Positions 43,562 through 50,515 of a stretch of DNA of 64,000 nucleotides are shown here, piece after piece (the first letter of the stretch is position 1; every line of letters begins with the position of its first letter). Source of the stretch: Bacillota bacterium. GTDB lineage: Bacteria > Bacillota > UBA4882 > UBA10575. A program made the position numbers and the translations under genes. The DNA lies in the NCBI GenBank assembly GCA_012838955.1, contig DUOH01000050.1, forward strand, positions 62,001 to 126,000. The letters are read 5' to 3'. Under the pieces are notes generated by a model. The model was not told the origin of the DNA, ran no database searches, and saw only the letters and a list, made by a program, of their open reading frames with translations.

Positions 43562-44359
43562 CTACGATTGATCAATGGCCTGACGCACTTCTGTGATGAA
43601 GTCACCGACCCGGGCGGCCACTACCGGAAAAGGTTCTCTAGTTATTCTCTTCACCACAGCGCTACCGATGATGACCCCCGCCGCTGACTTGGTAACTTCC
43701 CTAGCTTGCTCCGGTCCGGAGACCCCAAAGCCTACCACCACCGGTTGTCCTACTTGAGCTTGAACTTTTTCGATTAAGCCCGGTAATTCAGAGGTAAAGG
43801 CGGTGCGTTCCCCGGTGACGCCCCGGACGGAGACCAGATAGATAAAGCCCGTATTATGCTCGGCAATCATCTTGATCCTCCGGGATGAACTAGTCGGTGC
43901 GATCAGAAAATTAACGGCTAAAGCATGGGCTGAAGCCGCCCCTAGCAACTCCCCGGCTGCCTCCGGCGGTAAATCCGGAATCACCAAACCGTCAACGCCC
44001 ACCCCGGCCGCCTCACTAATGAACCGCTCCACTCCATATTGGAAAAGCAGGTTATAATAGATCAAGACCACCAAGGGCACGGAAACCCCGGCTCTCACCT
44101 CCTCCACTAGCTGGAAAAGATGAGCGAGGCGAAAACCTCCCTCCAAAGCCTGCTGGGCGGCGGTTTGAATCACCGGACCGTCCGCCAACGGATCGGAGAA
44201 AGGTACCCCGATCTCAATCAGATCAGCGCCTTTCTCTTCCAAAAGCGGAATTAACCCCTTGGTATAAGCGAAGGAAGGAGCGCCCGCCATTAAAAAGGGG
44301 ATCAACACCTTTCTCCCTTTCGCCGATAATTCTGCCAGTTTTTCCCGGACTCTATTCAT
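43562..44359 (-). CDS. trpA: Tryptophan synthase alpha chain
   Basis: Cleaves indole-3-glycerol phosphate to indole and glyceraldehyde-3-phosphate. 265-residue TIM barrel with [24 protein letters not shown] (catalytic Glu of the LIEIG strand and Asp of SDPLADGP), [23 protein letters not shown] and [12 protein letters not shown]. Its ATG overlaps the trpB stop by 4 nt (ATGA). Last gene of trpEGDCFBA. Confidence 0.97.
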
Positions 44360-45543
44360 AGCTCCACCCCCAAATATGCGGCCACTGTATTCAGGTCTTT
44401 ATCCCCCCGGCCGGAGATATTCACGATTACCATCTGCTGCGGTTGATAGGTCTTCGCCTCTCTGATTACGGCAGCCAAGGCATGAGCGCTTTCTAAGGCC
44501 GGAATAACCCCTTCACACTGAGAAAGCAGGGTCAGGGCTTGCACTGCCTCCTGATCGGTGGCTGTTTCATAACGTACTCGTCCGCTCTCTTTCAGATAGG
44601 AATGTTCTGGACCCACTCCCGGATAATCAAGACCGGCCGAGATCGAATGGGTCGGCTTCACCTGCCCGTCCTCATCCATTAGTAAATAACTGAAGGCGCC
44701 ATGTAACACCCCCGGCCTTCCCCGATTCAAAGTAGCCGCGTGCCGCCCGGTCTCGAGGCCCTCCCCGGCCGCCTCCACTCCCACCAGTTCGACCTGGCGG
44801 TCATCTAAGAAGGGATAAAAAATCCCAATCGCGTTGCTGCCTCCGCCCACACAGGCATAGATGGCATCCGGCAACCGGCCGGTCTCCGCCACAATCTCCT
44901 CCTTGGCCTCCCGTCCGATCACTGTTTGAAAATCCCTGACCAACGAAGGATAAGGGTGCGGTCCGGTGGCCGAACCCAAGAGATAATAAGTATCATCCAC
45001 ATTGGTCACCCAATCTCTAATCGCTTCATTGGTCGCATCTTTCAGGGTGCGACTACCGGAGGTAACCGCCCTTACCTCCGCGCCCAGCAGTTTCATACGG
45101 AAGACGTTCAGGGATTGTCGGCGTATATCTTCCTCTCCCATGTATACTACGCATTTTAAGCCGAAGAGCGCGGCTACGGTCGCCGACGCTACTCCGTGCT
45201 GGCCAGCGCCGGTCTCTGCCACAATCCTTCGCTTACCCATTCTTCTGGCCAGCAGGATCTGACCGAGAGCATTGTTGATCTTATGCGCCCCCGTATGATT
45301 CAGATCTTCCCGTTTCAGATAAATCTGAGGCCCGCCCAGTTCAGCACTGAGCCGGGCGGCTTTATAAAGGGGCGTCGGCCGTCCGGAATACTTCTGTAAA
45401 TAGTATTCCAGCTCTCGCTGGAACTTCATGTCTTGCCGGCATTCCTGATAGACCCTGTCCAGCTCGGCTAAAGCTTCCATTAGTGTTTCCGGGACAAATT
45501 TACCGCCAAACGGGCCGAATCGCCCCCACTCATCCGGTTGCAT
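44356..45543 (-). CDS. trpB: Tryptophan synthase beta chain
   Basis: PLP enzyme joining indole and serine to tryptophan. 395 residues. The ATG at 45543 has AAGGGGGA at good spacing; the ATG two codons upstream is too close to it. PLP Lys in [23 protein letters not shown] loop, phosphate loop GGGSNAIG, and [17 protein letters not shown] at the start mark the TrpB1 type that pairs with TrpA. It overlaps trpF by 14 nt. Confidence 0.98.
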
Positions 45544-46183
45544 CTGCATTCCCCCTTCTCTTCTTCTCCCAGGAACGGACGGCCTGTATAAACCGGTTGA
45601 CCTTGACCGGATCCTTCCGTCCGGGCGCGCTCTCTACTCCGCTCCCTACATCAACTCCAGACGGAGCCGCCAAGTCCAAGGCTGTTTGCACATTATCCGC
45701 CCGCAACCCCCCGGCCAGGATTACCGGTAGATTATACTTTTTATAACGGCTGACTTCCCGCCAATCAAAGGTCTCGCCCGTTCCCCCATGGTAACCTGGT
45801 TTATAAGTGTCCAGCAATAGAGCGCGACAGCGCCGTCGGGAAAGGTCCTGATCGGCAAGGAAGTCGCTCCCGCTGCGCACGGGGACAGCCCTAATCATCC
45901 TGGCCGGCGGCGCCCATTCCGGTAACTGTGGATCACCATGGATCTGAATTAGATCAAGTACACCGGCGGCAAATAAATCTATCCATCCCCGGTCCGCCTC
46001 GGGGGTAATTACCCCCACCCGTAAGACAAAAGGTGGCAGCCGCTTTGCGATCTCTTCTACGGTGACACAGGAGATTCTCCGGGGTGAAGGGGCCAGGATA
46101 AAGCCTACGGCATTGGCGCCTGCTTCCGCGGCCAGTAACGCATCTTTCAGGTTGGTAATCCCGCAGATCTTTACGCCTACCAC
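45530..46183 (-). CDS. trpF: Phosphoribosylanthranilate isomerase
   Basis: Amadori rearrangement step of tryptophan synthesis. 217 residues, GTG start with GAGGA upstream. [32 protein letters not shown] contains the catalytic Cys; [27 protein letters not shown] (catalytic Asp) and [12 protein letters not shown] complete the barrel. Overlaps trpC by 7 nt and trpB by 14 nt. Confidence 0.97.
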
Positions 46184-46980
46184 TCCTCTTTTTCCCCTTT
46201 CAGTTCACGCAGGGCTTTACCGGGATCTTCCCTCTTGACCAGTGTCTCCCCGATCAGAAAGCCATCAATCCCCAGCGCCCAGAGATTGGCCACATCTTGA
46301 CGGTTCTTGATTCCGCTCTCACTAATCACCGGAAACGTCCTGGCGCCCGCCTGCGCTCTAATCATCGGTACGAGCTCTTTAGTCACCTCCAGAGAAACCC
46401 GGAAAGTAGCCAGGTCCCGATTGTTGATGCCAATTACCTCCGGTTCCAGGGCAAGAGCGCATTCTATTTCGGCTGCTTGATGCACCTCGACCAGGACCTC
46501 CAGTCCGCACTCCCGGGCGCAGGCGCGCAGTTCCGCAGCTTGCGCCCGGGAGAGGGCGGCCATGATTAGTAAGACCGCGTCCGCCCCGGCCCACTTCGCT
46601 TCTAAAACCTGATACGGATCGATCATAAAGTCTTTCCTGAGAATAGGCAGGTTGGTCACTGCCCTGACCGCTTGCAGATCGGCCAAGCTCCCCCGGAAGA
46701 AACGTTCATCGGTTAAGACCGATAGCGCGGACGCGCCGTTTGCCGTATAGACTGCTGCCAGTTTCTCCGGAACCAAGCCGGGCGCCAAAACACCGAGCGA
46801 AGGTGAGGCCCGTTTAATCTCCGCCACGATTGACGGCCCCGGAGTTTGCAGGGCGGAACTGAAGCTCCTGATACCCGTGTTCCGTCTGGCGGTTTCACCC
46901 AGGAACGAAGCCGCCGGACGCTCCCTGGAGCGTTTCCTGACCTCTTCCCGTTTCCACTTCAAAATCTCCGCTAAGAACAT
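46177..46980 (-). CDS. trpC: Indole-3-glycerol phosphate synthase
   Basis: Ring-closing decarboxylase. 267 residues from the ATG at 46980 (AGGAG 8 nt upstream). Catalytic Lys and Glu motifs are seen: VAEIKRASPSLG, LRKDFMIDPYQVLEAKWAGADAVLLI, VLVEVH, VIGINNRDLATF and ISESGIKNRQDV. The monofunctional form is separate from trpF. It overlaps trpD by 10 nt. Confidence 0.97.
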   Translation of the reverse strand: MFLAEILKWKREEVRKRSRERPAASFLGETARRNTGIRSFSSALQTPGPSIVAEIKRASPSLGVLAPGLVPEKLAAVYTANGASALSVLTDERFFRGSLADLQAVRAVTNLPILRKDFMIDPYQVLEAKWAGADAVLLIMAALSRAQAAELRACARECGLEVLVEVHQAAEIECALALEPEVIGINNRDLATFRVSLEVTKELVPMIRAQAGARTFPVISESGIKNRQDVANLWALGIDGFLIGETLVKREDPGKALRELKGEKEEW

Positions 46981-48011
46981 CTGGTCTTCTCCTGCCGGGC
47001 GCATCTGCGGCTCACCTCGATTAATTCCTCCAGTTTCCGCAGAGCGGCGCCGGAGTCAATCACCTCGGCGGCCAGTTTCACTCCGTCCAGCATCGTCTCT
47101 ACCTTTTCTGCAGCTAATAAAGTGGCCGCTCCGTTAAGCAACACCACGTCTCTCCTGGGCCCAGTCGCTCCTTGAAAAACCTCCTGTAAAATCCGGGCAT
47201 TTTCTTTGGCATCGCCGCCCCGGATCTCTTCCAGCGGCGCCCTGGCTAGACCAACTTCCTCCGGGGTAAGTCTGAAGGATGACTCCACTTTTCCCTGGCG
47301 CACCCGGCACAGCTGGTTCTCTCCGGCCAGGGATAACTCGTCGACTCCCCCCGCCCCGTGCACGACCAGGGCGTTTTTAACACCCAGCAAGGCTAAGACC
47401 TGGGCTAAAACGGGGAGAAGCTTTTCATCATACACCCCCAGGAGTTGTAGTTCGGCTCCAGCCGGGTTGGTAAGCGGGCCCAGGATATTAAAGACTGTGC
47501 GAAAGCCCAATTCTTTCCTGGGACCGACCGCGTATTTCATCGCCTGGTGGAAATGGGGGGCAAACATAAAGCCGATCCCGGTCTTTTCTATACAGTACTC
47601 TACCTGCTCCGGATGGAGGTTGACCTCCACTCCCAACTCCTCCAGCACATCCGCGCTTCCGCAAGCGCTGGACACGGCCCGGTTCCCGTGTTTGGCCACG
47701 GGCACTCCGGCGGCGGCTACCACAAAGGCGACGGCTGTTGAGATGTTAAAAGTGTTTTTGCCGTCTCCCCCGGTTCCGCAGGTATCCAAGAGCCCTTTCT
47801 TGCCTGCGCAGATCCGGACCGCCTTCTCGCGCATGACCAAAGCCGCCCCATAGATCTCCTCCACTGTCTCTCCTTTCGCCCGCAAGGCCGTTAAAAACCC
47901 GCCGATCTGAGCGGGAGTCGCCGCGCCTTCCATCACCAGACGCATGGCGCCGGCCATTTCTTCTGTGTTTAAACTCTCCCCAGTCACTAGCTTACTGATC
48001 AGCTCTTTCAT
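46971..48011 (-). CDS. trpD: Anthranilate phosphoribosyltransferase
   Basis: Transfers phosphoribose from PRPP to anthranilate. 346 residues with the glycine-rich PRPP loop LLDTCGTGGDGKNTFNISTA, KHGNRAVSSACGSADVLE, and FMFAPHFHQAMKYAVGPRKELGFRTVFNILGPLTNPA. A monofunctional enzyme, not fused to TrpG. It is separated from trpG by 111 nt, the only real gap inside the operon. Confidence 0.98.
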   Translation of the reverse strand: MKELISKLVTGESLNTEEMAGAMRLVMEGAATPAQIGGFLTALRAKGETVEEIYGAALVMREKAVRICAGKKGLLDTCGTGGDGKNTFNISTAVAFVVAAAGVPVAKHGNRAVSSACGSADVLEELGVEVNLHPEQVEYCIEKTGIGFMFAPHFHQAMKYAVGPRKELGFRTVFNILGPLTNPAGAELQLLGVYDEKLLPVLAQVLALLGVKNALVVHGAGGVDELSLAGENQLCRVRQGKVESSFRLTPEEVGLARAPLEEIRGGDAKENARILQEVFQGATGPRRDVVLLNGAATLLAAEKVETMLDGVKLAAEVIDSGAALRKLEELIEVSRRCARQEKTRCS

Positions 48012-48122: not shown

Positions 48123-48698
48123 TCAAAGGACTAACCCAAGAAAATTTTCCATCACCCTCTTTCCACCCTCCGTTAAAACTGACTCCGGATGAAATTGCAG
48201 GCCCCAAATGGGGTGCTGTCGGTGACGGAGGCCCATAACCAAACCCTCCTCCGTCCAGGCTGTAACCTCCAGGGGAAGATCCGACTCCTCGTCCCAAGGT
48301 TCCACCACCAAGGAATGGTAGCGTACCACAGTCAAGGGGGAGGGCAAGCCGGCCAGAATCCCCGCGCCTTTATGCCAGACTTGGGAGGTCTTGCCGTGAA
48401 CAGGAGAAGGCGCCCGTCTCACCCTGGCCCCGAAAACCTGCCCAATGCACTGATGTCCAAGGCAAATCCCGAGAATGGGAATTTGCCCGGCAAAATACTG
48501 GACGGCCTCGGTACTGATCCCCGCTTCTTTTGGCGTCCCCGGACCGGGAGAGATAACCAAAGCCTGCGGAGACCAAGAGGCGATCTCTACCGGCGAGGTT
48601 TGATCATTACGGACCACCCGCGCCTTGGCTCCTAATTCTCCCAGGTATTGGAGGATATTGTATGTAAAAGAATCATAATTGTCGATGATCACAACCAT
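48123..48698 (-). CDS. trpG: Anthranilate synthase glutamine amidotransferase subunit
   Basis: Delivers ammonia from glutamine to TrpE. 191 residues: IIDNYDSFTYNI, VISPGPGTPKEAG (oxyanion region), ILGICLGHQCIGQVFGA with nucleophile Cys, VVRYHSLVV, and GLQFHPESVLTEGG with the His/Glu of the triad. Such subunits can also serve para-aminobenzoate synthase (PabA); no pabB was seen in the window. Overlaps trpE by 10 nt. Confidence 0.96.
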   Translation of the reverse strand: MVVIIDNYDSFTYNILQYLGELGAKARVVRNDQTSPVEIASWSPQALVISPGPGTPKEAGISTEAVQYFAGQIPILGICLGHQCIGQVFGARVRRAPSPVHGKTSQVWHKGAGILAGLPSPLTVVRYHSLVVEPWDEESDLPLEVTAWTEEGLVMGLRHRQHPIWGLQFHPESVLTEGGKRVMENFLGLVL

Positions 48699-50242
48699 CC
48701 TTCTCCCCCCTTTTCCAACAGGGTCACACTCTTAAAAAGCGCCCGTAGCTTGAAGATAGTCTCCTGGAACTCTTTTTCCGGATCGGAATCAGCAACAATC
48801 CCCGCCCCGGCCTGCAGATGCATAAATCCGTGCGCAACGATGGCCGTCCGAATGGCGATGCACGTATCCATCCGGCCGTCAAAACCGATATACCCTACGG
48901 CTCCCCCGTAAATTCCACGCTGGCAAGGCTCTAACTCGTCAATAATCTCCATGGCCCGCACCTTGGGCGCACCGGTAAGCGTTCCCGCAGGAAAAACCGC
49001 CTTTAGCAGTGAGAGAGCTCTGGAAAACAGGTCCGCTTCCCTTTCCATCCTACCGGTCACCCTGGAGACCAAATGCAGAACATGAGAGTAGCGCTCCACT
49101 GCCATGAACTCTTCCACCTTCACTGTGCCGTACCGGCAGACCCGTCCCAGGTCATTCCGGCCCAAATCCACCAACATCAAGTGTTCGGCCTGTTCTTTCT
49201 CATCACTCAATAATTCTTGCACTAAAGAATCCTCTGTCCGGCCTGGCAGAAAACGTGGCCTGGTACCGGCGATCGGACGCACCTCCGCCTCATCTCCGGC
49301 CAGCCGCACCAGCATCTCCGGAGAAGAACCGATTACCTGGTGGTCGGCGCCATCCAGATAAAATAAGTATGGGGAGGGGTTCACTGTGCGTAACACCCGA
49401 TAAAGTGCAAAAGGATCGCCGGTAAAGGGAAGGCTCAAGCGTTGGGAGAGAACAACTTGGAAGATGTCACCGGCAAATATGTAGTCCTTGGCCCTCCGCA
49501 CCGCCCGGTAAAAGTCTTCCCGGGTAAAGGTGGAGATGATCTTTTCCTCACCGGGCAGGATCGCCTTAGCCGGCGGCAGTGGCCGGGTGGTGGCAAGTTT
49601 TTGCAAAAGTAGGCGCATCTCCGCGTAAGCTTTGTGATAAAGATCCGCGTGGCCGGAAGGAGTGAGGAAAATAAGGAGGATTTCTTTTGTTAGGTGATCA
49701 AACACAAGCAATTGGCAGGGAACAAGCCAATACGCAGTAGGTAAAGCTAAGGGATCCGGTTTCTTCCCGGGCAGCTTCTCCAACTGCCGGACATAATCAT
49801 AAGCCAGATAACCCACGGCGCCGCCATAGAAGACGGAGGAGTCTTTTACAGGCGCCACCCGCAACTCTCGGATGGTCTGGGCCAAAACCGCCAGGGGATC
49901 GCCGGTTGTTTCCCGGGTCTCTCCCGCTGTCTGCTTTACTACTCTGGCACCTGAAGCGGAAATTACTGTCAACGGTTCCAGTCCAATCAATGAATACCTA
50001 CCGATCTTCATTCCCTTCTCCACACTTTCCAGGAGAAAAGAATTCCTGCCCCGCCCCAGCGCCAGATAGGCTCCGATTGGAGTCAAGCAATCCGCATGTA
50101 ATCTGTAACAGAGCGGAATATACCGATAGCCGACTTCTCCCAGCCGCAGGTACTCCTGGAGACTCATCTCTACCCTGTCTCTTCTGTCTTCAGCTTCTTG
50201 AAGATTGGAAAATATACAAAATTGCTCCTTGGTCTCTTTCAT
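48689..50242 (-). CDS. trpE: Anthranilate synthase component I
   Basis: Converts chorismate to anthranilate. 517 residues from the ATG at 50242, with AAAGGA about 10 nt upstream; a TTG at 50290 is in frame but without a ribosome site. The N-terminal tryptophan-feedback element LLES lies in RNSFLLESVEKGMKIGRYSLIG. The C-terminal chorismate-binding core has DIFQVVLSQRL, PSPYLFYLDGADHQVIGSSPEMLVRL, PIAGTRPRF, DEKEQAEHLMLVDLGRNDLGRV, and FPAGTLTGAPKVRAMEIIDELE. First gene of the operon, behind an attenuator-type leader (50243-50515). Confidence 0.97.
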   Translation of the reverse strand: MKETKEQFCIFSNLQEAEDRRDRVEMSLQEYLRLGEVGYRYIPLCYRLHADCLTPIGAYLALGRGRNSFLLESVEKGMKIGRYSLIGLEPLTVISASGARVVKQTAGETRETTGDPLAVLAQTIRELRVAPVKDSSVFYGGAVGYLAYDYVRQLEKLPGKKPDPLALPTAYWLVPCQLLVFDHLTKEILLIFLTPSGHADLYHKAYAEMRLLLQKLATTRPLPPAKAILPGEEKIISTFTREDFYRAVRRAKDYIFAGDIFQVVLSQRLSLPFTGDPFALYRVLRTVNPSPYLFYLDGADHQVIGSSPEMLVRLAGDEAEVRPIAGTRPRFLPGRTEDSLVQELLSDEKEQAEHLMLVDLGRNDLGRVCRYGTVKVEEFMAVERYSHVLHLVSRVTGRMEREADLFSRALSLLKAVFPAGTLTGAPKVRAMEIIDELEPCQRGIYGGAVGYIGFDGRMDTCIAIRTAIVAHGFMHLQAGAGIVADSDPEKEFQETIFKLRALFKSVTLLEKGGEGWL

Positions 50243-50291
50243 AAAAAAACCATCCTTTCTCCTAATTTGGAGATGGACGGCCAAAAGCAAG

Positions 50292-50319: not shown

Positions 50320-50444
50320 GACCGGACTCCGAAAGTCCGGTCGGTTTTATCTGGTGGACCTACTCTCGGCTCGTCTCTACTCCTCTGTAATTACATGTGT
50401 AAATTACAACTCAACTAAACTAAACTCATCTAAGATCTAATCTC
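50320..50444 (-). promoter_or_regulatory. trp leader: TRAP-like (G/T)AG repeats with antiterminator/terminator
   Basis: Minus strand, 5' to 3'. Block A has seven triplets: GAG 50444-50442 and TAG 50439-50437 (2 nt apart), then after 4 nt TAG-GAG-TAG-TAG-GAG beginning at 50432, 50427, 50422, 50417 and 50412, an exact 5-nt period. A hairpin TGTAATT/AATTACA follows (50386-50408). Block B has an adjacent GAG (50385), then GAG-GAG-GAG-GAG-TAG beginning at 50382, 50377, 50372, 50367 and 50362, again exactly 5 nt. An antiterminator pairs CCGAGAG and GTCC (50369-50356) with GGACTTTCGG (50338-50329). The competing terminator is GACCGGACT/AGTCCGGTC (50342-50320). The TAG/GAG triplets overlap the antiterminator arm, as in the B. 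subtilis trp leader controlled by TRAP. Confidence 0.75.
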
Positions 50445-50486
50445 ACCATAAATGAACAACTCAGAATGGGAAATAATTTTAGAATT

Positions 50487-50515
50487 ATATTACCCTACTA
50501 CGGCCAAAAAGTCAA
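50487..50515 (-). promoter_or_regulatory. SigA-type promoter of the trp operon
   Basis: TTGACT (50515-50510), 17-nt spacer, TAATAT (50492-50487). Start near 50480, giving a leader of ~240 nt before trpE. Confidence 0.75.

Follow-up and report, generated by a model that had tools for sequence, protein, structure and literature searches.

TRAP is a textbook RNA-binding ring that has been studied in a handful of Bacillus species. In B. subtilis its binding has a second effect, a hairpin that masks the ribosome-binding site of trpE. A continuous array of (G/U)AG triplets separated by 2-3 nt defines the Bacillus form of its target, and we treated departures from this layout as variants rather than as grounds for exclusion. 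The trp leader of Bacillus halodurans carries 19 triplets and is read by a 12-subunit TRAP (PMC3184956), and a TRAP site over the ribosome-binding site of B. subtilis trpG is among the subjects of the works cited by PMC3913778. The locus described here lies on the minus strand of a 64-kb window, the whole stretch of DNA analyzed, and comprises seven genes in the order trpE-G-D-C-F-B-A behind a long leader. NCBIfam models assign trpE (48689-50242, TIGR00564), trpG (48123-48698, TIGR00566), trpD (46971-48011, TIGR01245), trpC (46177-47004, NF001377), trpB (44356-45549, TIGR00263) and trpA (43562-44359, TIGR00262) above their cut-offs, and trpF (45530-46183, NF002298, E 2e-57) below its own. The first-pass annotation had proposed a TRAP-type attenuator before trpEGDCFBA, a reading supported by the presence of mtrB, the conservation of the triplet arrays and a predicted folding switch. 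Judged from these features, the leader is very probably a tryptophan-sensing attenuator read by TRAP.

Read directly, the leader contains 12 (G/U)AG triplets, arranged as seven, a 7-bp hairpin, and five. Block A (50444-50410) consists of GAG50444, TAG50439, TAG50432, GAG50427, TAG50422, TAG50417 and GAG50412, and block B (50382-50360) of GAG50382, GAG50377, GAG50372, GAG50367 and TAG50362, each numbered by its 5' end on the minus strand. Block B keeps an exact 5-nt period, and ten of the 12 triplets do so overall, as two runs of five; this matches the earlier description of 12-13 triplets in two blocks with ten in register, the count being 12. Out-of-register GAGs also occur at 50385 and 50365. 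The spacer from 50439 to 50432 is 4 nt, against the classical 2-3 nt, and a 27-nt interruption holding the hairpin separates the two blocks, which sets the array apart from a continuous one with 2-3 nt spacing. The window has two exact five-triplet runs, against none in 100 dinucleotide shuffles of it; across the whole 2.5-Mb genome the same pattern matches twice, both times in the trpE leader, with no match for a reversed-pattern control. Because the array exceeds chance in both comparisons, it counts for the TRAP attenuator. The exact pattern reveals no further TRAP target in this genome outside the trpE leader, and matches with one mismatch elsewhere were discarded as lying inside open frames or lacking a longer array. 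Upstream, a consensus scan finds a promoter-like site (TTGACT-17 nt-TAATAT, 50515-50487, 9 of 12 positions) that is weak on its own, with a chance mean of 0.9 in the region.

Folding of the nascent RNA predicts two mutually exclusive structures downstream. The antiterminator (50369-50329) pairs CCGAGAGU (50369-50362) with ACUUUCGG (50336-50329) and GGUC (50360-50357) with GACC (50342-50339), giving 8 + 4 bp that overlap the triplets of block B. The competing structure is an intrinsic terminator hairpin (50342-50320). In free RNA ending at 50328-50324 the antiterminator has a predicted probability of 0.95-1.0; from 50320 on the terminator competes, and once complete it is about equally favored. 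Since the free-state fold is then nearly balanced, the switch depends on the order of transcription. When all triplets are held unpaired, the terminator alone forms. The overlap of block B with the antiterminator arm and the alternative terminator, both read from the sequence in the first-pass annotation, are thus borne out by folding with and without blocked triplets, and the weak U tract noted there, TTCCTGTTTA, is real. Directly 3' of the terminator lies a 9-bp A+U-rich hairpin (50314-50292) that is missing from the aligned sister leaders; like the hairpin in the array, it looks lineage-specific. Neither of these two A+U-rich hairpins has a second copy in the window with up to three mismatches, and we rejected the idea that they are a mobile repeat.

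In ample tryptophan, by analogy with established TRAP biology, the tryptophan-loaded ring would wrap the triplets beginning with the 5' block, and the hairpin between triplets seven and eight would be left looped out. Block B would be kept single-stranded, the antiterminator would not form, and the predicted terminator at 50342-50320 would stop transcription before trpE. When tryptophan is scarce, TRAP would remain unbound, the antiterminator would form as polymerase passes, and the operon would be read.

The genome encodes one mtrB (G000:C31:45878-46075; PF02081, E 5.3e-37), whose product qualifies as an NCBIfam equivalog (129.6 bits against a cut-off of 117). Glu36, Lys37, Lys56 and Arg58, the residues with which Bacillus TRAP grips the triplets (PMC4027176), are all kept in this protein and in 27 relatives, within the motifs KFHHTEKLD and AMKIRG. 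The MtrB homolog that the first-pass reading presupposed is thus present here, and mtrB occurs in all 16 family genomes and in 27 of the 29 genomes of the class (22/22 of the good-quality ones). Within a sample of the phylum, PF02081 is found in 200 of 399 genomes and 142 of 267 genera, about half, a wider distribution than the first-pass annotation supposed; taken as a claim about distribution, its remark that few genera are known to have TRAP control is incorrect. One family member, G007, carries two different mtrB genes (C7:49982-50182, L014, and C29:85806-86000, L017), and in G005, G007 and G012 mtrB lies directly upstream of the trpE leader. Five genomes (G001, G002, G003, G013 and G014), two of them <90% complete, have mtrB and no TrpE match. 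For anti-TRAP, the 29 class genomes gave no match exceeding the family cut-off. Three weak matches lie inside frames of ~380 aa and were rejected; they are presumably DnaJ-like zinc domains.

Omp85 is encoded by 29/29 genomes of the class, with four matches in this genome, and the organism is probably diderm, which fits the earlier guess of a diderm lineage. The second-ranked named relative of its TrpE (L019, 46% identity) is labeled Limnochordia, a known diderm class of Bacillota (PMC11456536). As judged by sequence, the role of TRAP at trp leaders would extend through a class of Bacillota that probably bears an outer membrane.

The unusual part of this leader is the split array. The hairpin between the blocks (TGTAATT...AATTACA, 50408-50386) has 7 bp, as first annotated, with a loop of 9 nt and a p of 0.03 against shuffles of the gap; within its own genus it is known here from one species. 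Comparable structures recur in other genera, unrelated ones included. In the sister genus g3, a G+C-rich hairpin follows the second triplet in three species (GACCGGC-UGAU-GCCGGUC in G011, ACCGGC-GGAU-GCCGGU in G010 and GCCGGC-GAAC-GCCGGC in G009); at one position an A-U pair is exchanged for G-C, a double change. Beyond the family, G299 carries six triplets, then the hairpin UCCACC-GUUG-GGUGGG and five more triplets, exactly 11 in all, and G412, of the same genus, keeps six triplets, 22 nt and five triplets with a stem of only ~3 bp. Two hairpins lie between triplet blocks in G028, and one or more in G023, G349, G040 and G360; in some leaders the gaps are unstructured. Among 58 gaps of at least 13 nt, selected by a rule set after examples had been seen and including a few that share a genus or whose array does not immediately precede trpE, nine fold at p<=0.01 (0.6 would be expected by chance; binomial P 7e-9) and 15 do so at p<=0.05 (P 1e-7), in shuffles that kept base rather than dinucleotide composition.

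These data bear on whether the hairpin does anything. It may be incidental to a TRAP attenuator, the gap serving as a tolerated linker or TRAP binding one block and a few triplets at once, an account whose chances fall only a little short of even. TRAP stably binds RNAs with at least seven triplets (PMC4027176), the number in block A, and the reduced stem of G412, the unstructured gaps of several leaders and the modest p of the hairpin itself all agree with such a linker. Against it stand the enrichment of gap hairpins, the g3 hairpin kept in three species through a double change, and the position of the antiterminator overlap in block B and not in block A. The bridging role proposed in the first-pass annotation, in which the hairpin would join the two blocks on the ring, is plausible: the enrichment speaks for it and the loss of the stem in one close pair against it. 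More generally, split TRAP sites may be a recurrent second architecture, found in several lineages with one or two hairpins at varied positions, in which structured loops would link the two or three stretches of RNA held by the ring; we put this at slightly under an even chance. If so, the hairpin would shorten the path between the blocks and could steer or time wrapping during transcription. A literature search, in which subscription papers were poorly covered and which is weak for that reason, found no account of hairpin-split TRAP sites or of TRAP in diderm Bacillota.

A second predicted switch involves the start of trpE. In free RNA, block B (GACGAGCCGAGAGUAGG, 50375-50359) and CCUUGCUUUUGGCCGUC at 50292-50276 form a predicted duplex of -24.1 kcal/mol (p 0.002), and the energies of its equivalents in four relatives from two other genera range from -20.0 to -21.8 kcal/mol, with p from 0.008 to 0.052, so that this predicted switch is conserved across three genera, its own included. 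In folding, the 50292-50276 strand can instead form one side of the outer stem of a hairpin that covers the trpE ribosome-binding site (GGCCGUCC-A-UCUCC...GGAGA-AA-GGAUGGUU, 50282-50248). An 11-nt core, GACGAGCCGAG, is invariant in the five leaders, which fits a segment that serves in three ways. Where transcription reads through, unbound block B is predicted to pair with 50292-50276 and open the outer stem over the trpE start; with TRAP bound, the 50292-50276 strand would be released, the hairpin would close, and trpE translation would be lowered. Because the inner UCUCC/GGAGA stem stays paired whichever state is adopted, support for the translational step is only partial. The ATG best spaced from the Shine-Dalgarno sequence, at 50253, opens a four-codon ORF (ATG GTT TTT TTA TGA, 50253-50239) whose stop overlaps the trpE ATG, whereas the corresponding ATG of G011 and G015 in the alignment shares the trpE reading frame; the T7 run in this ORF may point to a shifted start or to translational coupling.

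Given the weak U tract, TRAP could act mainly on trpE translation and not on transcription termination, which we consider unlikely. The conserved pairing of block B with the start region, the start-site hairpin and the poor tail would suit such control, as would genera g2 and g4 (L103-L108 and L102), which have a second periodic triplet run over the trpE start instead. However, in the sister genera the leader alignment shows a terminator at the corresponding position, followed by a good U tract, and B. subtilis TRAP achieves efficient termination although its terminator is weak (PMC3913778). In several relatives the genes that follow also have a triplet run over their start (trpD in G015), and triplet runs over gene starts are a possible means of direct repression of translation by TRAP.

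In the family, triplets are kept ahead of trpE in every genome with a trpE match (11 genomes), and no loss of the kind that would weaken the first-pass reading was seen. For the wider phylum we compared the trpE upstream regions of 80 other genomes with mtrB and 20 without it, drawn from the best TrpE hits and thus not phylogenetically balanced. A chain of at least six triplets precedes trpE in 48/80 of the former versus 0/20 of the latter, whereas a T-box, scored by a simple motif, does so in 6/80 versus 19/20. Arrays and T-boxes before trpE thus appear nearly mutually exclusive, and because arrays go with mtrB and T-boxes with its absence, the contrast counts for TRAP attenuation. In the trpE leaders of the mtrB-bearing L171 (G018), L220, L222, L231, L237, L239 and L249, a T-box motif replaces or accompanies the triplets. 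In families f2 and f5 (L161, L162, L163, L165, L168 and L169) the TrpE match lies in a frame of ~770-815 aa with the array ~1 kb upstream, which suggests an N-terminal fusion with another enzyme domain. It is extremely improbable that the triplets are incidental to a T-box or to a ribosome-mediated leader-peptide attenuator: both devices are common for trp operons, as the T-boxes of the mtrB-less relatives illustrate, but the leader has no T-box (RF00230) or other Rfam match, the Rfam scan of the window returning only tRNAs and so refuting a T-box at Rfam sensitivity, its sole ATG-started short ORF (MVRLDLR) has no Trp codon, no trpL-like ORF with tandem Trp codons is seen when the leader is read directly, and the triplets are conserved alongside mtrB.

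Counted against the TRAP attenuator are the weak U tract, the nearly equal free-state folds, the inner start stem that is always paired and the interrupted array. On balance, TRAP control of this operon is supported about as well as sequence evidence allows; TRAP binding itself, and bridging by the hairpin, are what we infer from these patterns. The leader suggests that a single unbroken strip is not a requirement for TRAP binding, and split sites would give direct access to the way TRAP wraps RNA as it is transcribed.

Compared with known systems, the leader most resembles that of the B. subtilis trpEDCFBA operon, with which it shares an mtrB with the same RNA-binding residues, a similar number of (G/U)AG triplets (about 11 there, 12 here), an antiterminator overlapping the last triplets, a weak terminator and a hairpin over the trpE start. 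It differs in that the array is split 7+5 by a hairpin and has one 4-nt spacer, and in that it belongs to an Omp85-bearing lineage with trpG inside the operon and no anti-TRAP above cut-off in the class. A non-canonical triplet number is shared with B. halodurans, although here the 12 triplets form two blocks. Finally, the TRAP site of B. subtilis trpG finds its likeness in the g2 and g4 relatives, with periodic triplets over the trpE start, and in those with triplets over the next gene starts, whereas the trpE start described here has a hairpin and no triplets.
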